Source: Bullera alba
Taxonomy: Eukaryota > Basidiomycota > Tremellomycetes > Tremellales > Bulleraceae
Direction: 5' to 3'
Assembly: GCA_001600095.1 (NCBI GenBank)
Contig: BCIX01000003.1
Span: forward strand, 558,001-622,000
Length of the DNA: 64,000 bases
Below, piece by piece: positions 8,843-58,700 of this stretch; within the stretch, counting starts at the first letter, position 1, and each line of letters starts with the position of its first letter. The notes beneath the pieces are model-generated. The model made no database searches, was not told where the DNA came from, and worked only from the letters and a program-made list of their open reading frames with translations. The position numbers and the translations under genes are program-made.

Positions 8843-9755
8843 ATGCCGCCACCTACTGTCACAGATGCCGATGAGGAGGAGGAACATGTCAGTCGTGAGT
8901 CATGATCTGCCTTTTCAGCCCCATCACGTCCATTTGACTGAAATGTCCCCTCCGCCAGTGGAGCTCATGATCAAGGAGACCGAGCGAGGGATCTCCTTGG
9001 CCGACCGCACGACCACGACTGCAGGCGGAATCAACATCGCTGAATTCAAGCGGGACGTGGCGTAAGTGTGAATGTCTACAATCGGTCATACTGTGCGCTG
9101 ATATGTCTCGCGCTCCTTGTTCAGCCTCAAACGTTGGAAGAACGACCGAATGTCAAGAGGACTCATACAGTACTCCGACTACACCAAAGGCGTCTTCTCT
9201 CGGTACGGCTGGAACACTGACAAGATCTCACGAATCGGCGATGACAGAGAAACGATCCTCGCGCTCGTGGAGAGTGGGGATCCTGAGGCTGCTGATCTCG
9301 TGCAGAAGATGAGCTACCTCCGAGGCGAGGTAGACCTTTTGTATACAGTATCATACCTGGACGATCTTCAGTCCAGGGTCAGTGCAGCATTCACCAAGCA
9401 CCCCGACTTGCGAACCTCGCACTGGCTTCCCGCTACACGAACATTAGCGAGCATCAAGCGATCCCTCAGCCAGCAGACGGAGAAGGACAAGGAAGATTAT
9501 ACCCTCAAGCTGGCAAATACCGTCTACTACCTCACGGAGAAACAAAGCTCCACGTTCGAGGACATCATGGACCAGTTCAAGCTCGAAGCAGAGACGAGAA
9601 CTGCCGTGCAGCCGATCTTAGATGTGCTCGTTAGCGGCAATCAGCCAGGTGTCAACAAGAAAAGGAGGAAGGAGATAATGAGCCAACTCTCTCAGACCCT
9701 GGACGACGCGAAATCTAAAGGCACTACCTCCAGCGCTTCAATCGCTGAGAGTTAG
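8843..9755 (+). CDS. YGWN family member B (function unknown)
   Basis: Three exons (8843-8894, 8959-9061, 9125-9755) give 261 residues with closed phases. The first exon is short and acidic (ATDADEEEE-like). The second, exactly 103 nt, encodes DRTTTTAGGINIAEFKRDV. The third carries RGLIQYSDYTKGVFSRYGWN, then ETILALVESGDPEAADLVQK, then a long helical region. Exon 2 has the same length and phase in copies C and D, which shows common descent of all three. There is no signal peptide, membrane segment or recognised catalytic motif. Charged helices and the repeated DP-AADLV block suggest a cytosolic or nuclear scaffold or binding protein, but that is only an impression. Confidence 0.75.
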
Positions 9756-10510
9756 AAAGCCGAGCAGATTGATATCTCTGCCTTTCCACCGTTTTATACT
9801 CACTTCCTTACCTCCTTACTTTATCGCTTGCTGACTCTCTCACTTGTTCGTATACAGACTTTGCTGATCACAGACTCTCGCTGTGCATGTGCCTTTGTGA
9901 TTTTCGTTCATGACGGAAAATAACAGATGGTACCAGGAGACGATCGTCTGAAAGCACTGGGGATTGGGCCAATCAGACCATGTTTGACTTTGAAGTCTCA
10001 AGTCTTGAGTGGACTGACCTATACTAAGAGCACCGTTTCACATCAGACGCTCCTGTGTTCATGAATACCTCGCTTGACCAGGATGTGAATACTGGAATGA
10101 CGCCATTCACAGACGGTGCAGTAAGACCGAGCACACCAAACGGGCTCACGGCCTACCGCTCTGAGCTACAGCTCGTACAAGTTTCGAAGCTCACCCTTAA
10201 TCCTTATAGACCCACCGCAGTCCGCACCGAAGTGGCGCGTTTCACTAGCCTAGCCCCTTTGGTCGTTGTCTCCGTTAAATTGGTGTTCAGAGTCTCAGAC
10301 TCGTCTGGTCCTTTGCGTCTCGGAGTCTTGAGAGGCGTCACGAGTTTGGTGCATGGATTTGTGAAAGTGGGCTTCTCTACCATCTTATATATCTAGCTCA
10401 TCGTGTCCGCCAGTGGCGAGTTTTTCTCTTCTCTGGGTATCATACCAAACGTGGAAGTCCTACTCTCATACTATCCGCTAGAAACTCACCGCAGAACACC
10501 GATCAATACC
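9756..10510. other. Intergenic spacer between YGWN genes B and C
   Basis: No gene is supported. The right end (10327-10510) is a duplicated promoter segment, annotated separately. A frame of about 110 codons near 10055-10396 overlaps that non-coding repeat and lacks splice or composition support. Confidence 0.45.
10327..10510 (+). repeat. Promoter segment duplicated upstream of YGWN genes C and D (copy 1)
   Basis: This segment aligns by eye with 12272-12458 along its whole length. Shared blocks include GAGGCGTC-CGAGT, ATCTAGCTCAT-GTG, TTCTCTTCTCTGG, ATACCAAAC-TGG and CCGATCAATA just before the start codon. It sits directly upstream of gene C and therefore holds its promoter and leader. Duplication of the regulatory region together with the gene points to a recent local duplication giving C and D. 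Confidence 0.75.
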
Positions 10511-11575
10511 ATGTCTTCATGTGGGCACGATGCTTTCAGCGACATCAAGGATGCCTGTGAGTGCAGCCAGCCGCCCGGCGTTGTCTCCGATTCCGTTCCT
10601 TCAGAGTCTCAGACTCCAGAATCATCGAGTTGGCGTTTCACGAATGATGTTGAACTTGACTGACTTGTCCCGTCTCACAAATAGTCACCCGCATGGTCCG
10701 GAACCTGGAAGATACAGAGATCACCAAACAGGACCGAACGACCAACGCCGGTGGCATCAACATTGCGGATTTCAGGCGTCAAGTAGCGTAAGTCGTCCGG
10801 CATGTTGACTGGTGACTGGTGTACATGCTGTGCTGGAGTCTTGCGGCTAGGGTATCAGACTCTCACTCACTGGTGTCTGGACTGCGGAGCGTCTCACGCA
10901 AGTCGAGATCATGCTGACAAGGCTGCACTGCACAGGCTCAAACGTTTCCTTCACGACAAAGTCCCTAGAGGCATGACTGAATTCTCCACCTACGCGAAAG
11001 GTGTCTTCACTCAATACGGATGGAACACGAAAGCCATCTCTCAGCTCTCTCGAGGAGTCGACAATTCGGAGACTGTGCTCGCTCTCGTGGAGAAGGGGGA
11101 TCCTGACGCAGCTGATCTTGTCCAACAGCTGGGTCGTCTTCGACCAGAGAAGGTGTACATGAAACCGCAAATTGACGGCTTGCAAGAGAGACTTCGTTCT
11201 GCCTACAAGTCTCACCCCGAATTCGCAACAACTGTGTGGCTTCCTTCTATCCAGTCTTTGGCCAAGGCCAGGAGTGTCGGTAAGACGGTCGACACCAAGG
11301 CCGCCAGTGTGGTGTCGGCGGCTACGGCGAAGCTCTTCAGCGCAGTTTCTGAGACCGCCAGACTGATGGGCAAGAGTGTCGAGGAAGCGATGACAGACAT
11401 GGACTACACCGATGACGAAAAGGCAATGTTCGCCCCGTACATGAAGGCGGAGGATGCTGACGCAACCGAAGACATGCCCTCTGTGGATCTTGAGGACCCT
11501 GACTCTGAGGATGAGGATGATGAAGAGGACTTTGAGACACAGATCAAAGACTTGTTCGCTATGCTGCGACAGTGA
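10511..11575 (+). CDS. YGWN family member C (function unknown, acidic tail)
   Basis: Three exons (10511-10556, 10685-10787, 10936-11575) give 262 residues. Exon 2 is 103 nt and encodes EDTEITKQDRTTNAGGINI. Exon 3 begins LKRFLHDKVPRGMTEFST and continues with KGVFTQYGWN and ETVLALVEKGDPDAADLV. The last 40 residues are strongly acidic (PDSEDEDDEEDF) and end in an amphipathic IKDLFAML helix. The upstream 180 bp is duplicated before gene D. It is the closest relative of D by sequence and promoter. I do not recognise a domain; acidic tails are common in chromatin and RNA-associated proteins, but that is not evidence of function. Confidence 0.75.
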
Positions 11576-12458
11576 TTGAGGTTTGTCTTTGGCTTTGCGG
11601 AGTGGCGGACTGCCGTCTGCCAGTAGTCAGTACTCAGTATTCAGTAATGCTCATTGTGGCGAGTGGCTAGGTCGAAGTTCGAAACGTCGAGATGAGGAGG
11701 GGACAAGTATAGCTATTAGCGGCATGCACCAAGTCGTCAGTTGGGTTACAGTTTACAGGTTGTCAGGTCGTGTGGGAAATCGGCGAGAAAGTGGAAGTGA
11801 CAATGACTTCAGAGTTCAGACCTCAGACTGACAGCCATATCGATAATCGCCTATCGGCATATGCTATCGAGATTCGAGCCACATTCAACGATAGTGCGAT
11901 ACATATTACTGACAGTCACGACTCACGACCCGACGACTACACAATAGTAATACACAGGACACAATCACAGCTAGAGCCTCGCAGCAGTATTCCAGTTGTA
12001 CCCGCAGTAGTCTAAATCTTGGATGCGAATGACAATCTACTTCGTAGATACGGGGACATGGCCGCCGTGATTGGCTCGCCGGGTCGGCGAATCGACGCTC
12101 TGGCCTCTGGGCGGCTCTGGCTCTCCTGACGATCGTAACCTATAAACCTACATTCAGCTGCTGGGGGACGGCCATTCAGTCACTGCCCCAAGGATGTGTG
12201 TTTCATCAGCTCATCCCCTTTGAGCGATGTCCCCATCATATTGGGGGTCAGACAAGTCTTATCCTTTGATTCTCAAGAGGCGTCGCGAGTATTGTGCACG
12301 GATCTGCTGAAAAAGTGAGCTTCTCTGTCATTTACCACATCTAGCTCATTGTGGCCGCCGGTGGCGACTCTCTTCTCTTCTCTGGATACCATACCAAACC
12401 TGGCAGTCTTACCTAACACTATCCGCTGAACACTCATCACGGAAGACCGATCAATATC
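11576..12458. other. Intergenic spacer between YGWN genes C and D
   Basis: The left part is unique sequence with short CAGTA/TATCGA repeats and no supported gene. The right part (12272-12458) is copy 2 of the duplicated promoter segment. Confidence 0.45.
12272..12458 (+). repeat. Promoter segment duplicated upstream of YGWN genes C and D (copy 2)
   Basis: This is the partner of 10327-10510 and ends at the start codon of gene D. The two differ by scattered substitutions and a few small indels, so the duplication is not brand new but is younger than the split from genes A and B, whose upstream regions do not align by eye. Confidence 0.75.
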
Positions 12459-13406
12459 ATGTCCTCATCTGCTCAAGACCACGATGCGTCCAGCGGCATC
12501 AAAGCTGCCTGTGAGTGTAGCTCGAACTTTGAAGCCGCACAATGTTGTCCACCACCACTCCAGTCCTCCACGATTTCGGTATGATGTTGGACTTGGCTGA
12601 TATCCAAACTTTCAATAGTCACGAGCATGATCCAGGATCTGGAAGACACACAGATCACCAAGAAGGACCGGACGACTACTGCTGGTGGCATCAGTATTGC
12701 GGATTTCAAGCGTGAGGCGGCGTGAGTTGATCTGTTCAGCTGATAGATCGACCGATGAAGCCCGCATTTGAAGTTCCGAACTAACATACATGATACCGTT
12801 GACAGGCTCAGACGCTTCGTGAACCACAGCTTGCCTAGAGGTATGACCGAATTCTCGACTATGGTCAAGGGTGTTTTCACCCAATACGCTTGGAACCCAA
12901 AGGCCATTTCCAACGTGTCTCGAGTGTCAGACGTGACCGATACGGTGCTGGACCTGGTCGAGAAGAATGATGCTGACTCCGCTGACCTGGTCCTGAAGTT
13001 GAGCTACTTGCAAAGCCAAAGCCGGATCTACTCGAAGGACGAGCTCGATACGATGCAAGCGGCATTAAGTCAGGCTCTCAAGACTCACCCCGAATTCCAG
13101 TCTGTCTGGATGTCAGGCATTCCGACCCTTGCTCGAGCCAAAAGAAGGTCGAACGCCTTGACCATGGCCCTGGAGATCAAAGATATGGCTGCCGAGGCCC
13201 TTTGCGATCTGGTTACAGAGCTGGCGGAGCAGGAAGGAGTCTCAGTGGAGTCGATCATGGCAGAAGAAGATTGGACGCAGGCAAGCAGAGACACCGTGGA
13301 GCCTCTGCTGGTTCTACGACGTGTCAAAGCTGCAGAGTCGAAGGCGGAGGAAGATGTGTCCGTTGACGATCTTCTCTCGGCTCTGACCGTGACGAGCGAT
13401 GTCTAG
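12459..13406 (+). CDS. YGWN family member D (function unknown)
   Basis: Three exons (12459-12510, 12619-12721, 12806-13406) give 251 residues. Exon 2 is again 103 nt (EDTQITKKDRTTTAGGISI). Exon 3 reads LRRFVNHSLPRGMTEFSTM, then KGVFTQYAWN (Y-A-W-N instead of Y-G-W-N), then DTVLDLVEKNDADSADLV. The C-terminus is acidic but shorter than in C and ends DDLLSALTVTSDV. Intron positions and phases match C exactly. It is soluble and helical with no signal peptide. It closes the four-gene same-strand cluster. Confidence 0.75.
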
Positions 13407-29537: not shown

Positions 29538-29918
29538 GTACCCGGCCGTTCTGCAAAGCTACACAACCAGTCGTATACATCACCAGGAGCAGCAGCAGGG
29601 TTCTGGAACCAACCGAACCAACAAGCCGGAACGTCCAACGTGGGACCCTCTCGGCCTACCGCACCGACTGGATCGGGAGATCCATGCAGTGTGACCCCCG
29701 CTAGGCAACCCTCACCTTCCGAGAGCAGCAGCGCGCCTTCGACGCCCGACCTTGTTGAGATGCCAAATGGCATGTTCAAGTTCGGAACGCTCGCCGAGTT
29801 CAAAGCCACAGATCTATACCAGGCGAAAGCTGCGTCTAAAGGCGAAACGACAGTAGCGGAAACGATAAACCTCATAAACAAACTCGAAACACATTCATTT
29901 CAAAGTGACACTACTTGA
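29538..29918 (+). pseudogene. Orphan coding fragment, unknown
   Basis: An open frame of 126 codons starts after an acceptor-like CATAG at 29537. Its content is gene-like: a Pro/Ser-rich part, then PSTPDLVEMPNGMFKFGTLA and TTVAETINLINKLE. No upstream exon or start codon could be joined to it. It lies head-to-head with the preceding minus-strand fragment inside the decayed region and is probably a remnant or the last exon of an unresolved gene. Confidence 0.35.
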
Positions 29919-49926: not shown

Positions 49927-50671
49927 GTCTGACAGTACGAGTGGTCAGAATGGCGATGAGGGTATGAGATGCGAGGGAGTTGGGGGATCGGAGGTGTCAG
50001 GTCCAAGCGTCGCCTGGGGGTCAGAGCGATGGTGACCGGAACCGCGGGGGTGAAAAGTCCAGGCTGGGCCGACAGCGGTCAGGCGAGTCGATTCGGGCAA
50101 AAGTGCAGCAGCGTGATTCGATACGTGGTAGCCTCACATGCTCAGTGCAGGGCAGTTGAGATCTAGAAGCTAGAGGCATGCATGTGAGATGCAAGACGAG
50201 GTCTACACTGCTACAACATCAACCCAGACGCCAGAACCAAACAAGAGCCGGGGGCGGGTCACAGCTTTACGAAATTCAGCACGGCATTATTACCGGTTCG
50301 GGCAAGTTTACCTCGTTTCAACTCTGACACAAGGGTGGAAGCAAAAGGAGATCGAGAGGTTGAACCGTTGAAACCGGTCTGTGAGCTGTGAGTTTGGGCG
50401 TCGTGTTCGGCTCGAGGATGCCGATGGACAAGGAGGGTCATTGTCGGACAGCAATCTGACGACGCAAACGGCATGCTCTTCCCCACCTAGATTCGACGCA
50501 CGCATCGCGGGTGCGACTCCATTGTCCAAATGATACTCAAGTACGGGTCACTACGAACAGATGTGCGGTCTGGTTTCCCGCCGGTCGCCCGCCGGCCGCC
50601 TAACGAACAGGGCCTGTAGGAGAGGAACCACGAGCACATGACCCTTCTTTGCTGTTTTCTCTACAGAGATG
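49927..50671. other. Spacer and presumed promoter of the RhoGAP gene
   Basis: About 745 bp. The right end approaches the first RNA-like unit. No gene is visible; short frames lack codon or splice support. Confidence 0.4.
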
Positions 50672-50751
50672 TAGCTCAGCGGTAGTGTCATACTGCGATC
50701 CTTCGGCTGAGCAGGTTGAAAGCCTTCCTCAGCGTCGCGATCATCCTTTTT
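50672..50751 (+). ncRNA. Pol III-like unit 0 of a ten-unit array (tRNA-like)
   Basis: It has an A-box-like TAGCTCAGCGG (50672-50682) and a B-box-like GGTTGAAAGCC (50714-50724) with tRNA-like spacing of 42 bp, followed by CGCGATCATCC and a five-T terminator (50747-50751). The arms do not fold as a full tRNA: the acceptor and T stems do not pair, so it is not called a tRNA. It has the most canonical promoter of the array and may be its ancestral or degenerate tRNA-like form. Confidence 0.4.
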
Positions 50752-51142
50752 GCGCGGATGCTTTGAGGAAGTACAATGCTCTTTGGACTGCATACTCAGC
50801 TCGCCGGGCATAGGGAGTCTGAAGAGAGTCGTCCCTTTTGGCCACTACATGTCTTCGACAACGTTTGCCGGGATGTCTGTTTCTTGCAATGGCTTGAGTT
50901 AATGGCATTGGCCAGCCCTAGCCACTTAGTTGACAACTGGCTGAGTCGCCGACGATGTGTCATATGAGTTCTCGCAGACCGCAGTTTGTTCAGATTTCAC
51001 CCAATACGGAGAGATGTGCAGTCAGCTTTCCCGCAGTCCCTGGCCTGGGGACATCCTCTGTCACTCGAAGTAAATACTGCTGCCTCGTGTGCTACACGAC
51101 ATGTCACATTCCCGTTGATCTCGGGGTACGTGAACCGTGGTG

Positions 51143-51340
51143 TACATAATCGTCATTCCATCAACATTGTGTATCGGTGGCGTAGCACAACGGTTATGTA
51201 GCAGTGTTATGGCTCTACCTGCCTATGCATTGCCTCACAATCCTTAGGCTGGGCCGCCCTCGCTATCTGCAAAGTTACCTATCGTATCGGGTCTGTTTGA
51301 CGTAGTCGAGCCTTCTCAACTTAGCGCGATCAGTCTTTTT
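51143..51340 (+). ncRNA. Pol III-like unit 1
   Basis: TATA-like TACATAAT (51143-51150), A-box-like TGGCGTAGCACAACGG (51178-51193), then GCGCGATCAGTC and five T (51336-51340). The span from A box to T-run is about 160 bp. There is no open reading frame of note. Confidence 0.4.
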
Positions 51341-51590
51341 GGGCCGGCATTCTCGAAGATTCACGATGAGCTCTCATGACTTACAGTATGCAAACGACCA
51401 CCGCAGAGTAGCTTGACGCTGCCGGAGTAAGCGGTCTGTGCGCAGGTGATCCAGCCTCGGGCATCGGGCAAGACCGATTCCAGGATCCAATTCCAGACCG
51501 CATCAGATCGGTCTAGCCTCCCGATCTCCTGAGCCCAACCTGATTCCCTCACGTCATTCGATAAGGCTGCGTGTCGTTATATAAAGCACT

Positions 51591-51624
51591 GTTGCGGTAG
51601 CGGGGGGCTTCCTGCTACCGCAAC
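51591..51624. repeat. Perfect 11-bp inverted repeat with 12-base loop
   Basis: GTTGCGGTAGC (51591-51601) and GCTACCGCAAC (51614-51624) can form a strong hairpin with a G-rich loop. It lies between a TATATAAA and the A-box-like motif of unit 2, so it could be part of an RNA or a protein-binding site. Confidence 0.85.
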
Positions 51625-51862
51625 AAGCACGTTACGCCTCCTACCCCCGTGTCCCACAGTAGCGGTCGCGTAGCGTAGTGGGTATTCCGTACCAATCCCA
51701 CGGATTGCAGGCTCAGTCGCTCATATGAGCAAGCAGAGTTTACTCCATGAGCTCGCCAGTAAGTCAAAGCTTGCATCACGGTTGTACCAATAGTTCAGGA
51801 TCATACATCCTTTCGACCTTTGTTCAAAACTCCAGTCAAGGCCACTTTCTGTTCGTTCGGCC

Positions 51863-51886
51863 GTCAGTCAGTCAGTCAGTCAGTCA
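51863..51886. repeat. (GTCA)6 microsatellite
   Basis: Six perfect copies of GTCA lie within unit 2, just before its T-run region. Confidence 0.95.
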
Positions 51887-52015
51887 AGGGCTTGCAATCC
51901 TACCCGATCAGGGACACTCTTTTTCCCTCTCAGAGGTGGATACACTGCCTCAAGAAGGTAGATTCGAAGACGAAAGGATCATCCTCGTCCGTATATGCCT
52001 AAACTCGATGGATTC

Positions 52016-52200
52016 TTATAGCCGTTTTGCTCAAACTCCGCTATGGACGCTCTACGGGACGGTCGCGTAGTACAACGGTTAACGCCCCAGGATCCGGGGG
52101 CTGAACATCCCTCAGACTTGCACCAGCAGTGCTGGACAGCACGACATGTATGATGCATACGGCGCGATCAATCCCGCTGCAATGATCTCCTACCCTTTTT
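52016..52200 (+). ncRNA. Pol III-like unit 3
   Basis: A-box-like TCGCGTAGTACAACGG (52063-52078) followed directly by TTAACGCCCC, a very tRNA-like D-arm start. A CCCC/GGGG stem with a seven-base loop follows where an anticodon arm would be, but the loop lacks the usual pyrimidine-U start. ATGATCTCCTACCC and five T (52196-52200) close the unit. TTATAG sits 42-47 bp upstream of the A box. Confidence 0.4.
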
Positions 52201-52287
52201 GTCTCCACACAGGCTATCTATCCCGCCTCGTGTTTTCCACGACATGCCTTCGGACCTCGGACGTCAGTTGAAGGTGGCAGTAGCTCA

Positions 52288-52697
52288 TATACACAGCTTG
52301 TGTGTGGACGCTATCGATAGCGTAGCACAGTGGAACGATAGACGTCTTGTCAATCCCCATCCGTGTTAACAGTAGACACACTACTGTCTGATGTCAGATC
52401 TGACATACAGGGCATGACGTGCAGGACGCCGCCAAGCGGTGTCCCGGGGCAGTAATCAGTACTGTCCCATGTGCCAGGGCGATGCGTCGCCCATTGGACA
52501 TCGGCCAAGTTCTGTCCGGCGCACGAACAGGTCGAACATCGACTGTTCAGCACACATGGAAAGTATGCTTAGCATGCTGTTCCGTCAACCCTCCTCCCCT
52601 GAGGGGGAGAATCCTCGAAGTATTCGGGGAACTTCGAATATCGAAGTCACTCACAAGCATCGTGAGACAACACGGATCGCTATCATCTGTGCTTTTT
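52288..52697 (+). ncRNA. Pol III-like unit 4
   Basis: TATA-like TATACA (52288), A-box-like TAGCGTAGCACAGTGG (52318-52333), B-box-like TGTCAATCCCC about 30 bp later, right motif CGCTATCATC (52678-52687) and five T (52693-52697). Internal hairpins include GGGCGA/TCGCCC (52477-52492) and CTCCCC/GGGGAG (52594-52609). Confidence 0.45.
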
Positions 52698-52994
52698 GCA
52701 TGCGGTGATGTCCTTGACTTCTTAGTCTTCGGCGATCTGGATGCCGACTCGCTACTGTCTAGCCTCAATATCGAAGCGCGATCGCAGTTCGAGACTTACT
52801 TCGCATTCGACTTGACCCTGGCCAATCCTGACTAGTACTAGGCCCGATTCCTGGCGCCTTGACTGTAACTAGTCAAGTCTTATCGTCCTTCCAGCCCAAT
52901 GGGCTCGTTGTATGCACTCATATGCGCCCCCTTGACCTCATCAACCAGCATGGCGGACATGAAATTTGAAACCTGAAACGCCAACTGACGGCGA

Positions 52995-53584
52995 CATATC
53001 GACCAAGATCACCTTCGCCGAATAGATAGCGTAGCACAGCGGGACGATAGGTGTTGAGAGACACTGATCCACTCCCTTCCATGCGACGCCGAAAGTTGAA
53101 AGACTTTCCCGTCAGGCCTGCACGGCGCCGCTGGTGTGATGCCTGCGGCGCCAGCAGTGCGTTCGGAACAAGCGTAGGGTTGGCAGGGGTAAAACCCTCT
53201 ATCTACCCTTTCCGTTTCGAGTATGCTGTGGCACCTACAGACCTCACGACCGCAAGGCGTGAGGATACTGCTCTGCTTGTGACACTCATTGTGGTCCTCC
53301 GTGATCGTTCTGGTCATTCGTGATCGGATGAGGAAGTAGTGCATAAGAACAACTAGTGCTACTCGAGGCAACTCGTCACCGACAGCGCGTTACATTACGA
53401 TGAACGCATCCCTGTCAATCATACAAAGCACTTATGGGCAATTGCGAGGTGAAAAAGCACTCACAATTGTTCGGTCAGACTACCTTGCCAGCCTAGGACA
53501 CCCGAAGCCGGGGGGTTTCCTCCAATTCTTCGTCAAGAAGATCGTGTGTGAACCATCAGCATGGATCGTTATCATTATCTTTTT
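52995..53584 (+). ncRNA. Pol III-like unit 5
   Basis: TATA-like CATATC (52995), A-box-like TAGCGTAGCACAGCGG (53027-53042), right motif CGTTATCATT (53567-53576) and five T (53580-53584). It is the longest unit. Hairpins GGCGCCGC/GCGGCGCC (53124-53152) and CCTCACG/CGTGAGG (53242-53264) are perfect. Confidence 0.45.
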
Positions 53585-53798
53585 ACATGGTGAGGTGAAG
53601 CAGAGCGCTAGCAGCCAGGTGGCTTTGAGTCAGCGTACTACATTATGTACTGAGTGCGTGCTGCCCCATGCCCGCGAGCAATGCATGTATGCTTGTATCC
53701 GATCTGTGCGCCATGCATTCCCACCACATGATCGACTAAGACTCGTCGATGTGAAACCAAACATGAAACACCGCCAATAGTCCCACTGTGACTGACGG

Positions 53799-54199
53799 CA
53801 TAGATCGACGACGATCATCTCGTCCCATTAGGTAGCGTAGCACAACGGGACGAAAGACGTCCGTCCAATCTCAACCATGCGGGGCAGGTGAGATTCTCCC
53901 TACGGAGGCCTCGCCCTACCCAAACCCAAGCGAGTAGTTCCGGCATCTTCGTCCAACGGGAAAGTCTGAGCAGGTCCGAGTGATCACCGGACCTCGACGA
54001 CTGGATCGTTTCGTGTATGAGAGTGCGCAAAGGACTACCGCCTGGTCATCCGAACCAGGGTGACCTGGCCTCGGGTAACTCCGGGGTCATAATGAATCGT
54101 CCTTCACATACAGAGGGATGGTCGACCTCGAGTAACTTCGGGGTCCTAAACAACCGATCGATCACAAACTCAGCAAATGGAACGCTACCATGTCTTTTT
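53799..54199 (+). ncRNA. Pol III-like unit 6
   Basis: TATA-like CATAGAT (53799), A-box-like TAGCGTAGCACAACGG (53833-53848), right motif CGCTACCATG (54183-54192) and five T (54195-54199). A GTCCAATC B-box-like block lies about 31 bp after the A box. Confidence 0.45.
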
Positions 54200-54392
54200 G
54201 GCGACAGCCATGAACGTTGGCAACTGGCCGAATGCGAAGATGGGCCTCGCTCCAGCCAGAGCATCATAAGCACATCGTCTGACATTGATCACGACGAGCT
54301 ACCGAGCTCAGCGATTCACTGTATGCACTGTTTCCATGCAGAACCGCAGCGGATCGTGGTGATACACTGTGTGGAAGTGATGCCGAAGAAGG

Positions 54393-54701
54393 TATAAGTT
54401 ATGCAGAACAGCGATCGATTCCTGTTAGGTAGCGTAGCACAACGGAGAATGACGTCCAATCAATCTGTGCCTTTGGTACGGTGATCTTGCTGGGTGCTGG
54501 CCGCAAGCCAGTGCTCGACAATGAATGCCGTCCCGTCTTCAAGGGAGTGCCTCCGATCTGCCTCGTGCATGGAGCAGTGATGTAACTAGCTAGTACTCGC
54601 TGTTCCGGCTCACGAGAATTATTGAGGAGGAATGCTTGGATAAGCCCGGCCTCGAAAGAGGTTTCCAAGGCGAGGACCGCTATCATCGAAACACCCTTTT
54701 T
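54393..54701 (+). ncRNA. Pol III-like unit 7
   Basis: TATA-like TATAAG (54393), A-box-like TAGCGTAGCACAACGG (54430-54445), right motif CGCTATCATC (54678-54687) and five T (54697-54701). A CTGGC-CGCAA-GCCAG hairpin lies near 54497-54511. Confidence 0.45.
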
Positions 54702-54800
54702 GTGAGCAAGTACACTCATCAGCATCCCCAGTGCTCGATATCTACAATTCCGGTGGAGACCGGTATCTGTTTGCTCTCATTCGGATGGACTTGGACTGGA

Positions 54801-55113
54801 TATATACCGAGATCGTCCCACTTGACTAGGTAGCGTAGCACAGCGGGAATATTCATTGTTCAATCCACTCACGTGCCGTGCGTTGGAAGACCTGCTACCT
54901 GCTTCGGCGTGGCATCCTTCTGCCAGTTCACGAATGGCACATGGCGTTGTTGCTGTGCCGATCAGCATTCGAGGTGTCTCTCATGAGACATCTCGAGGGC
55001 CACGGAGACAGAGTCTGGGCTTCGCTCCGTGGTCTCGGTCCTTCTCGGTTCAGGGGGTTACGGGCTCCCTCTGTCGAAATTGAAGCCATAGGCGATCGCT
55101 ATCATCACTTTTT
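54801..55113 (+). ncRNA. Pol III-like unit 8
   Basis: TATATA (54801), A-box-like TAGCGTAGCACAGCGG (54831-54846), B-box-like TGTTCAATCC (54857-54866), right motif CGCTATCATC (55097-55106) and five T (55109-55113). A 10-bp stem GAGGTGTCTC/GAGACATCTC (one G-U pair, 54971-54994) and an 8-bp stem CCACGGAG/CTCCGTGG (55000-55032) lie inside. It is the best-formed unit. Confidence 0.5.
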
Positions 55114-55273
55114 GGTCCATTGTCCTCGGTCCCTGATGAGACTGGCCGCATGATAACCGTACTGACTGGTATTTGTTTCAGATCTTCGATACGACTTACT
55201 ACTGAGGTACTGTGCGAAGGACGGTGTCAAGAATCATGGCCCTAGCCTATAGGTCACGGCCCAGTTTCCACGG

Positions 55274-55503
55274 ATAGATAACCGCCAAACAGTCCTTCGA
55301 GATTAGGTAGCGTAGCACAACGGAGTAGACAGTGTTCAATCCTATTTACATAGATGTCTTGTTAGCCATACTTGACATCAGCCCGGTTACAAAGGTTCGC
55401 TGCTTTGACAGCATTCGATCTGCCCTGCAGCGGGCAGGTCGAGGGTCACGGTCTGTAGTGGACCGTGATTCCAAACCAGGACGGGACGTTATCATGCCCT
55501 TTC
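55274..55503 (+). ncRNA. Pol III-like unit 9
   Basis: TATA-like ATAGATAA (55274), A-box-like TAGCGTAGCACAACGG (55308-55323), B-box-like TGTTCAATCC (55333-55342), right motif CGTTATCATG (55487-55496). The T-run is broken (CCCTTTCTGC), so termination may be weak. A nine-pair hairpin GTCACGGTC/GACCGTGAT (one G-U) lies at 55445-55469. Confidence 0.4.
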
Positions 55504-55754
55504 TGCTCGACATGCAGTGTGACCCAGTCGGTCTCAGCTTGGACGGCCGATATGAGGGGTCGGACGTCTTAGATTGATGGTACAGACGCTAAGTGCATGA
55601 GGTATATTATACTGGGATGGATATGTACAAGGTCTACAAGCTAAGTGGGTACAATCCGTATGCGTTCTAACGCGATGACAAGGTGTAAACATGATAAGTG
55701 TGATGTAGATGTGGTGTCTCGATATATCCTCCCGTTTTCTCCTACTATCGGGCG

Positions 55755-58700
55755 CTAGTGAGCGGTACCGATCTCCGGCATTCCTTCCTCCAGAAGACTT
55801 CCCCACTCGTCCGCCTGTGTTGGCGGCGTGGACCTCTCCTTCCTCTCCTTCAGGCCCTGTGCCTCCCATGGCGCCAAGGCCGAGATCGCCTTTTTCCCCT
55901 TGGAGTGTCCCCTCATGACTGGCAGGTCGTCCTCGGAGTCACTCGAGTCCATCACCATAGGCCATTCCTCCCCCACCAAGACTTCCGGCGCTCCCCACCC
56001 CTTGACCAGCATTTTGGGCGGGGGCATTGTCGACCCTCTCAACTTGAGCGATCGAAGGGATGGCGTCGGTCTGTCCGGGTTGAACCTGTTCGATCGGGGT
56101 AGACCCGAGTTTCCGGAAGCCGATCGGACGAGCGGGTTGGATCGGAGGAAGCTGCCCGCGGCGAGATCGATCTTTCGAGCCAAAGTCGGTATCTTCCTCC
56201 CAGAGCTGGAGGATCTCTTTTGGTTGACCTTGATGGCGTCGAAGAAACTCTCGATATCGCGTCCAGTACCGCTCAACCCATTGGCATTCGCGCCATTGAT
56301 CGGGTTGGACCTCACGGATCGGATAGAGCCAGTGGGTGAAGAAGGCGCAGAACCGCCCCAGGGGAACTTGCCGGGCATGCTGATTCCCATTCCAGTCGTC
56401 GCCTTGGATCCACTACCGCCAGGCGAGCTCGCCGAGGGTGTGGAGGGCCTGGATTGATGAGACGACACCTCAACCACCACCATCACAGCTTCAGTCACGT
56501 CGTCTACCGCATGAGGAGTGATAGGGCCGTTCGAGTCGGAAGACGAAGCTCGTGAAGCGGTCGACTTCCTACTCTCCAAGACTGGGTGGGTTGGCGTTGG
56601 CGAGCCGACGTTGATCCTCGATGCCGACTTGGACTTGCGGACGGTGAGCGGCGATGACAAGTCGCTCGAGCCGGATCTGCTGGGAGGCGAGTTGTTGGCA
56701 GAGGTTGATCGAGCGAGTTTGACCTTGTACCTTCGCCTTGGGGACGTCGAGCTTTCTCCGGATAACTTCTTGAGCGTGATATCCCTGATTGCCGAGACAA
56801 AGCCCTCTTCCTCGCTCTCGCTCCCGCTCCAGCCTAAGTTCTTGGTGAAGCTCATGCCGGGTCGCAAATCGGTAGGGGAAGTGCTGCCCGAGCGAAGAAG
56901 TGCTGGACGACGCTTTGGCGAAGGCTCCTTGTTCAAGCTCGTGTTTGGCGAGAGGATCTTCGACTGGATAGCGGCTCGGACTAAGGGTTGAGAGATGTCC
57001 AAGTCGGAATCGGCGTCGATCTCGAGCTCGCTATCATCATCGATAGAATTGGCCTTTTTGCTGGGAGATCGCTTGATTGTCTCATCGAGACGTGGACTGC
57101 TTCGACCAGTGTATCTCCTCTCCGCGAAGGGCGGCGGGGTGAGAGGCGAGTTCATCGTGGTGATCTGATCGGCAACAGGAGTGTCGAGACTGATCTCATT
57201 CACGGGCACAGTGCCGGCGTTCTTGCTACCTGGAGTCGGGGTCGTCTCCTCGTCTTCAGTGAGCGTTGACGAGTTGTGTATCTCGTCGACGACTTGAGTT
57301 GGGGGTGTACGCTGAAGAGCGGAGAATGACGTGACACCAACCCGTCGAGTCGCCGGCATGACCGTCGGAGGAGGGGTATGCTGCCTCGAAGGTGGGACCG
57401 GGAATGAGAGCATGTCACCGACGCTGACAGCTGAATCGGTTCGTCGATGGGCACTGGCACCTTGACCATTCACGCTCGAAGCGGCAGATTGAGACCTGAG
57501 GTGAAGATCCCCTGGCAACATGTCGATACTGTCCGAATGAGCGTCTCTGAGCATGGCCGATGCGAGTAGTGGTTTGAGCACTTTGGGCTCCAAAGCCATG
57601 TGTTCGAACGGGTTGATGAGCTTGAACGGGGTGATGAGGTGGTCTGGGGTGTTGTACACGCCCAGGCCTTTGAGACTCGAGCTCGAGACCGCCGAGTCAT
57701 TGGTGAGCGGTGGCACCGAGAGGGATGGGGACGCGGGCAATGCGACTTCTGCCTGTTCTTCGAACACGGGCATCTCCTCGGCGAGCAGTTCGGGCGATGG
57801 AGGCGCGAGTTGAGGTGGCACCATGGGTGGGTTCTCGTCGATGATTGGCGATGGACCACTTCGTGGACTGAGACCCATGTCTTCACCCCAAGGCGCTCTG
57901 TTCATGGACTGGATGGGGGTCTCTGCGATCGAGCCCTCATCATCGCTCAGTGTCGAAAAGGCCGTGACGCTGGACTGCTTTGGTGTAGGAGCGGCCGAGG
58001 GAAGCAACGAGCTGTAGGCCGAATCCTGTGCCTCGAAAGTCGCTGTGAACGCCGGCTTGGCAGTGTTGAACTCTTCGGCATCACCGAAGTCGCTTCGCGA
58101 AGCGAGACTATCGGCTCCATCAGCCGAAACCGAGGAGAAGATTGTCGATGCGATGGACCCGATGGATGCTCGGACTGAAGGAGCGTAGGACAGAGCCGAG
58201 TTGCCGTCGCAAGAGGCCATCGAGCCGAGTGAGGGGTTGCGCAGTGCTGCTCGGAGTGATGACATTGGCGCGGCAGCATAAAAGGAGCAGTCGCTTCGGT
58301 CACTGATGCTGGGAACTCTGCTGGGCTGAAGTCGCTCGTCGTCGCTGGGGTTGCAAATCGATCCCTCGAACGAGAGTCGGCGGTTGTCTTCCGATAAGCT
58401 CTCGGCGATGCTGAGTTGGGATAGCCGTTTCGACATCTTGGGATAAGGTAGGGGTAGTGATTTGAAGTCTTCCCTCTCCTCTCCTCCTTCCATTCGGATC
58501 TCAGGGATGGACAGCCTCGACATGGGCATGAGCTCCAGACCGCGGTCGTCGCCAGATACTGATGATGGACCTGATCGACTGATGAGTGCCGACCCGAGAG
58601 CCTTGGAGGTCCGAAGAATGTCGTCTCTCAAGCCGGTAATAGACGAGGTGCTCAGCCTGTGTTCGGACTTTGCGAGGTGCAGCGGTGAAGGTGAATACAG

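Follow-up and report, generated by a model that had tools for sequence, protein, structure and literature searches.

Genes transcribed by RNA polymerase III (Pol III) in fungi are usually those for tRNA, 5S, U6, RNase P and signal recognition particle (SRP) RNA and a few others. Dictyostelid Class I RNAs are described (PMC7919456) as RNAs of 42–65 nt in which a short stem, kept through sequence change, joins the 5′ and 3′ ends, with a conserved stretch of ~11 nt beside the 5′ strand and a remainder that varies in both sequence and structure. Their genes, often clustered, have an upstream promoter element, with a DUSE at about −60, and a T run suggesting Pol III, and the same account reports the class as unique to dictyostelids. 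In Neurospora, Pol III dependence is on record for milR-1 to milR-4, which are followed downstream by T runs; milR-4 also requires RNase Z, and the Pol III inhibitor ML-60218 has been used in this fungus (PMC3547838). Here we analyse a 64-kb stretch of Bullera alba DNA (contig BCIX01000003.1, positions 558,001–622,000, forward strand; hereafter the window), in which an original prediction from the sequence alone had placed an array of ten diverged units, each with a tRNA-like left motif, a right motif and a T-run. We describe nine units (U1–U9, 51,176–55,504), plus a doubtful U0 from 50,665, and consider it likely, at roughly 70%, that U1–U9 form a Pol III gene family arranged in tandem, in which an acceptor-like stem would close RNAs with unrelated structured bodies.

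Results

Conserved ends flank unrelated bodies

In a nine-unit alignment, only the ends proved to be common to U1–U9. Each unit starts two bases upstream of the left motif of the original prediction, with a 7-nt strand followed by UA and then by GCACARYGG or a close variant, and finishes with a second 7-nt strand complementary to the first, then an A, a trailer of 3–25 nt and five T (T5), the T-run of U9 being interrupted (Table 1). The predicted RNAs measure 110–550 nt, trailer excluded. Mean ungapped identity between units, 0.91 in the first 10-nt block, fell to 0.69 in the second; the block at the right strand reached 0.74, and no other block examined exceeded 0.34 (0.25–0.29 beyond +20). 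The middles had been called almost unalignable, in keeping with which blastn between the nine bodies (plus strand, E ≤ 0.1) returned self matches only.

The left motif, TAGCGTAGCACARYGG, was found at all nine predicted positions, without mismatch at six of them and with one, three and two mismatches at 51178, 51666 and 52063, respectively. With up to three mismatches allowed it matched the window ten times, the tenth being a three-mismatch match at 29546 on the minus strand; shuffled controls gave a mean of 1.13 matches and a maximum of 3 (0/100 reached ten). The shorter tRNA-like form expected at 50672 is present as TAGCTCAGCGG. The right motif CGYTAYCAT, anticipated in six to seven units, is exact in six (U4–U9), the right end of U0–U3 being a variant that ends in CGATCA. 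Taken alone and with one mismatch, CGYTAYCAT shows no enrichment in the window (41 matches vs. a shuffle mean of 33.3; 8 of 100 shuffles reached 41); followed by 1–15 nt and T5, it occurs five times in the 19.4-Mb genome, every time inside the array, and the reversed control pattern occurs 0 times. T5 is present in nine of ten units (TTTCT in U9) and begins 82–555 nt downstream of the unit start, within the distance of 80–560 bp from the left motif that had been foreseen, and the order left motif, right motif, T-run is kept in all ten. That the array holds no credible protein gene was likewise borne out: the longest ATG open reading frames (ORFs) reach 126 aa, and the best Pfam match (E = 0.013), in a scan of 10 of the 18 ORFs of at least 60 aa, fell below the cut-off.

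Table 1. Units of the array and associated elements (window coordinates; TATA-like elements relative to the unit start).
Feature	Position	Strand	Left end	Right strand (position)	T-run	Closing stem	TATA-like element	Remarks
U0, doubtful	50665..50751	+	box-A-like TAGCTCAGCGG	variant CGCGATCA at 50736	T5	none	none	
U1 gene	51176..51340	+	GGTGGCG-TA-GCACAACGG	CGCGATC (51325-51331)-A	T5 51336-51340	6/7	-31	stem not formed in ensemble
U2 gene	51664..51924	+	GGTCGCG	CCCGATC (51903-51909)-A	T5 51920-51924	6/7	none at -30	
U3 gene	52061..52200	+	GGTCGCG	CGCGATC (52163-52169)-A	T5 52196-52200	7/7	none at -30	no folding excess
U4 gene	52316..52697	+	GATAGCG	CGCTATC (52678-52684)-A	T5 52693-52697	7/7	-30	folding z about -7.6
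U5 gene	53025..53584	+	GATAGCG	CGTTATC (53567-53573)-A	T5 53580-53584	7/7	-30	
U6 gene	53831..54199	+	GGTAGCG	CGCTACC (54183-54189)-A	T5 54195-54199	7/7	-32	
U7 gene	54428..54701	+	GGTAGCG	CGCTATC (54678-54684)-A	T5 54697-54701	7/7	-35	
U8 gene	54829..55113	+	GGTAGCG	CGCTATC (55097-55103)-A	T5 55109-55113	7/7	-28	box-B-like TGTTCAATCCA at about +29
U9 gene	55306..55504	+	GGTAGCG	CGTTATC (55487-55493)-A	TTTCT 55500-55504	7/7	-31	box-B-like TGTTCAATCCT at about +28
TATA-like example	54801..54806	+						TATATA, at -28 of U8

The two ends of each unit are complementary

Complementarity between the left and right end motifs, absent from the original prediction, extends over 61 of the 63 positions of the end strands in U1–U9, with 7/7 pairs in seven units and 6/7 in U1 and U2. 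Thus, GATAGCG pairs with CGCTATC or CGTTATC, GGTAGCG with CGCTACC, CGCTATC or CGTTATC, and GGTCGCG with CGCGATC in U3; the pairing of GGTCGCG with CCCGATC in U2 and that of GGTGGCG with CGCGATC in U1 each leave one mismatch. In register, 96.8% of the cells are paired, vs. 22–65% when the partner is slid by 1–3 columns. The best pairing found before the first T5 was, for U1–U8 jointly, greater than in samples drawn at random from 15 control T-runs (p = 5e-5), and that of each of U3–U8 was equalled by one of the 15. An A-U to C-G exchange in U2 and U3 is the sole column pair changed on both sides.

The stem joining the ends, which lie up to 550 nt apart, appears in the minimum free energy (MFE) structure of eight of ten units (not U0 or U1; in U2 with its mismatch). 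Its predicted ensemble probability in transcript plus trailer is 0 in U1, about 0.4 in U4, 0.67 in U3 and at least 0.8 for most pairs in the others, and without the trailer 0 in U1 and 0.82–1.00 in the other units. A junction common to the units beyond this stem (a hairpin after box A and a helix beside the 3′ strand) was suggested by several MFE structures but proved too inconsistent to be put forward.

In their layout the ends comprise 7 bp, two bases, GCAC, A14, R15, Y16, G18 and G19, and a lone A after the 3′ strand. We read this as tRNA positions 1–19 and 66–73, box A included, the numbering being our own. An acceptor-like stem, U8, A14, R15, G18, G19 and the base after the 3′ strand, all as in tRNA, occur throughout U1–U9, the units compared.

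Promoter-like and terminator-like elements resemble those of tRNA genes

For comparison we used 27 tRNA genes recovered from the same genome, a lower bound on their number. Box A lies in the units at its tRNA position, as in type 2 Pol III genes, and its 14-mer pattern is also found in the genome's own tRNA-Arg(ACG). When the region from −42 to −22 was scored for TATA-like elements, the cut-off of 3.5 was reached by seven of nine units (at −28 to −35), 19 of the 27 tRNA genes and 7.8% of window positions, and scores were above the window background both for the nine units (p = 8e-5) and for the 27 tRNA genes (p = 3e-10). A box-B matrix built from the 27 tRNAs found a candidate near box A in U8 (p 0.033) and U9 (p 0.003, both uncorrected); present in these two units only, box B was rejected as a general feature of the array.

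Of 24 plus-strand runs of five or more T in the window, nine are in the array, where all nine close units, and 15 in the other 58.8 kb; for runs of five or more A, the counts are one inside the array and seven in the rest of the window. Inside the U1–U9 bodies (2,517 nt), T4 occurs 0 times vs. 3.3 expected (p = 0.024). A T-run placed directly after the RNA is what a Pol III gene would have, and in the genome's own tRNA genes a run of four or more T begins at most 43 nt from the 3′ end in 27/27, being T5 or longer in 25. Closing stem, excess folding, TATA-like element and T-run are all present in each of U4–U9, save for the interrupted T-run of U9.

The spacer before U2 has at 51578–51625 a segment consisting of TATATAAAG (51578–51586) and, after it, an inverted repeat with 15-nt arms, TGTTGCGGTAGCGGG and CCTGCTACCGCAACA, that are 93% complementary and separated by 6 nt; the segment also contains GGTAGCG, the left strand of U6–U9. 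It could be a displaced U2 promoter region or encode a separate small hairpin RNA.

Most bodies fold better than shuffled sequence

Folding z-scores ranged from −2.4 to −7.6 in eight of ten units (not U0 or U3), and from 0.63 to −1.74 in the nine spacers, no spacer showing a folding excess; 40 random windows had a mean z of 0.07, with one below −3. The sense strand was more stable than the antisense in nine of ten units. With their ends removed, bodies still had z ≤ −2.6 in seven of nine cases (not U1 or U3). As a separate observation, U6 contains an internal duplication (54069–54169; 77% over 44 nt) whose two segments, CCTCGGGTAACTCCGGGGTC and CCTCGAGTAACTTCGGGGTC, are both predicted hairpins with a GUAA loop.

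The array reaches no Rfam threshold, and no other copy was found in the genome

The comparison with Rfam that had been proposed gave no family reaching the gathering threshold in the 64-kb window. At E ≤ 10, a scan of 50400–55760 yielded a sole match below threshold, to the long non-coding RNA HOXB13-AS1_2 at 54995–55033 (16.3 bits vs. a cut-off of 40, E = 2.4), which we took as chance. ARAGORN reported 0 tRNAs in the window, and tRNA models found no cloverleaf with a T arm. The tandem repeat search returned three short arrays, with repeats of 11, 4 and 9 bp, none of which connects the units.

No other copies of the units were found in the 19.4-Mb genome among the best candidates scored, and at E ≤ 1 the array matched, besides itself, only its own inverted repeat. 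The left 17-mer with up to two mismatches has ten genome matches, eight in the array (U2 was missed) and two on C1; since its reversed control has 20 (8 forward, 12 reverse), matches at two mismatches are uninformative. At 0–1 mismatch there are seven matches, all in the array. The box A 14-mer GCGTAGYACARYGG has ten genome matches, comprising eight in the array, one in tRNA-Arg(ACG) and one on C1, vs. four for the reversed control. The C1 match looks coding-like by eye. Neither there nor at the one 17-mer match inspected on C1, of the two, was a tRNA, an Rfam match or a visible unit present. Together with the paired ends, the T5 runs, the TATA-like elements and the folding, the lack of an Rfam match supports the earlier view of the array as a family of non-coding RNA genes and not a decaying satellite.

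Other features of the window

To the right of the array, the gene at 55755–58529 encodes a 924-aa protein without a Pfam domain and with three Kwoniella matches (27–31% identity). Another protein of the window has two near-identical matches, one at 97% covering 70% of the query and one at 100% covering 63%, and the same search gave a Tremellales sp. Uapishka_1 protein at 34%. At 9150–13406, three adjacent ORFs (201, 257 and 187 aa), none with a Pfam match, share K-G-V-F-x-x-Y-x-W-N near the N terminus and form a local protein family.

Discussion

From the common ends and their pairing, the promoter-like and terminator-like elements and the folding excess, all of which are present in the sequence, we infer Pol III use, transcription, processing, a shared protein and a function. 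Each unit would be transcribed by Pol III from an internal box A, aided in seven of nine cases by a TATA-like element ~30 bp upstream, and terminated at the T-run, giving a transcript whose ends pair in a stem of up to 7 bp, followed by an A. The frame of a tRNA, that is, positions 1–19, the 3′ acceptor strand and the discriminator, would thereby be retained, with a body replacing the anticodon and T arms. The ends may serve as a common handle, providing the promoter, end protection and perhaps handling by RNase P, RNase Z or La; alternatively, one shared protein could bind the closing stem plus the UAGCACARYGG strand. The needs of a promoter do not explain the complementary 3′ strand, so a factor acting on the RNA should keep it, for which end protection, RNase P/RNase Z, La or a binding protein are candidates. 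The bodies would be under selection for folding, not for sequence, a trait that by analogy they may share with the variable interior of the dictyostelid Class I RNAs.

Several observations weigh against this interpretation, many of them in the left part of the array, which is weaker: U0 lacks the stem, U1 and U2 pair at 6/7, and U3 has no folding excess. The best pairing in U0 is 5/7, which 12 of 15 control runs reach, and 3/7 with its own CGCGATC; U0, which has neither closing stem nor TATA-like element, may be a relic. Taken singly, U1 and U2 pair no better than most controls, being equalled by 11 and 10 of the 15 T-runs, and the stem of U1 has a probability of 0.00 in the predicted ensemble. 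Covariation is thin, with changes on both sides in one of seven pairs and a score reached by 31 of 500 shuffles, and re-pairing the strands among units gave p = 0.055. Shuffled bodies still give the stem, with a mean probability of 0.40–1.00, so that its ensemble probability is weak evidence; the evidence for the stem is the complementarity of the end strands. The antisense strands of U4, U5, U8 and U9 also reach z ≤ −2.3, because perfect hairpins fold on both strands. As regards the promoter, the TATA matrix was hand-made, not trained, U0, U2 and U3 have no TATA-like element near −30, and seven of nine units have no box B near box A within the range of the genome's own tRNAs.

Among the alternatives, the one that survives best, and that we nevertheless regard as improbable, is that the units are Pol III-driven small-RNA precursors akin to the Neurospora milRNAs, with Dicer cutting hairpins in the bodies and Argonaute loaded with the products. 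Besides this fungal precedent, milR-1 to milR-4 (PMC3547838), the genome contains PAZ and Piwi matches ~1.3 kb apart on C2, from which an Argonaute is probably present, and RNase III is represented by two modest matches that pass the cut-off (E 1.7e-5 and 1.1e-4). However, with scoring confined to uninterrupted helices, the longest in the MFE structures is short, at 7–13 bp per unit, and no long perfect target was seen among the genome matches of the array at E ≤ 1. A second Piwi-domain match, at C3:2056853-2057260, reads through three TGA and one TAA, pointing to introns or a decayed gene.

Less probable still is that the array represents the relics of a tRNA gene cluster, that is, tRNA pseudogenes of which the ends are the last recognisable parts. 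The left end does read as tRNA positions 1–19, with the 14-mer in common with tRNA-Arg(ACG), and U0–U3 have the shortcomings listed above, in stem, folding (U3) and TATA-like element (U0, U2 and U3). Yet end strands, T-runs and, mostly, TATA-like elements persist around 110–550 nt devoid of T4, the bodies mostly fold far better than shuffles, no tRNA model matches, and complementary ends 550 nt apart, as in U5, are not what decay should leave intact.

Vault and Y RNAs are made by Pol III from small gene clusters and combine paired ends with a variable interior. That the units belong to either of these known scaffold classes is nevertheless very improbable, as neither family appeared in Rfam at gathering or at E ≤ 10, most units exceed the usual length of about 100 nt, and, for Y RNA, no TROVE/Ro60 domain was found in the genome when searched exon by exon (a search whose control was positive in 1/14). 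A search for the major vault protein (MVP) gave 0 matches in this genome and 0 in control genomes too. A tandem satellite or a SINE-like family of short mobile elements, to which we give the least credence, would account for a repeated left motif and a tRNA-like head as in SINEs, but not for unrelated bodies, irregular spacing with no tandem period linking the units, and the lack of any other copy found in the genome.

If U1–U9 are Pol III genes of the kind we propose, basidiomycetes would gain an RNA gene family of nine tRNA-ended members whose folded interiors are unrelated. It would parallel, independently, the Class I RNAs of social amoebae and would let one ask what use a shared closing stem has when the interior is free. 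Complementary ends plus a Pol III terminator would also offer a search route to such genes where searches for body similarity fail. A more speculative extension, which we hold to be unlikely although not far-fetched, is that the array is cassette-like, with a fixed tRNA-derived frame and inserts that in every copy have been replaced or have diverged beyond recognition, most of them being selected to fold. This would amount to a fungal system in which one locus yields a diversified set of structured RNAs with protected ends, which might, for instance, serve as decoys or scaffolds for a protein that binds them all.

How does the array compare with systems already described? Among the matches listed in literature searched by title and the start of the abstract, no such array in fungi was described. 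Like the Neurospora Pol III milRNA loci (PMC3547838), the array would combine fungal Pol III with TATA-like elements and downstream T runs, and the tRNA-linked processing of milR-4 offers a further likeness; unlike them, it has no long uninterrupted hairpin and forms a tandem family with shared tRNA-like ends. With the genome's own tRNA genes, of which the nearest is tRNA-Arg(ACG) at C5:1097932, the units have in common box A, positions 8–19, the 7-nt acceptor strands and the base after the 3′ strand, as well as the TATA-like element, the short trailer and the T run; in contrast to tRNA genes, they show no T or anticodon arm by eye, ARAGORN or Rfam, and extend to 110–550 nt in total. By analogy, the closest published architecture that we found is that of the dictyostelid Class I RNA as outlined in PMC7919456, since an end-joining stem, a motif beside the 5′ strand and a variable rest all occur in the array, as do clustering, an upstream promoter-like element and a T run; the array differs in its greater length (110–550 nt vs. 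42–65 nt) and in having TATA-like elements at ~−30 plus an internal box A instead of a DUSE at ~−60. The Class I family (RF01414) gave no match in the Rfam scans, either of the window at gathering or of 50400–55760 at E ≤ 10, so the relation is one of likeness and not membership; it concerns architecture and not the residues of the motifs.

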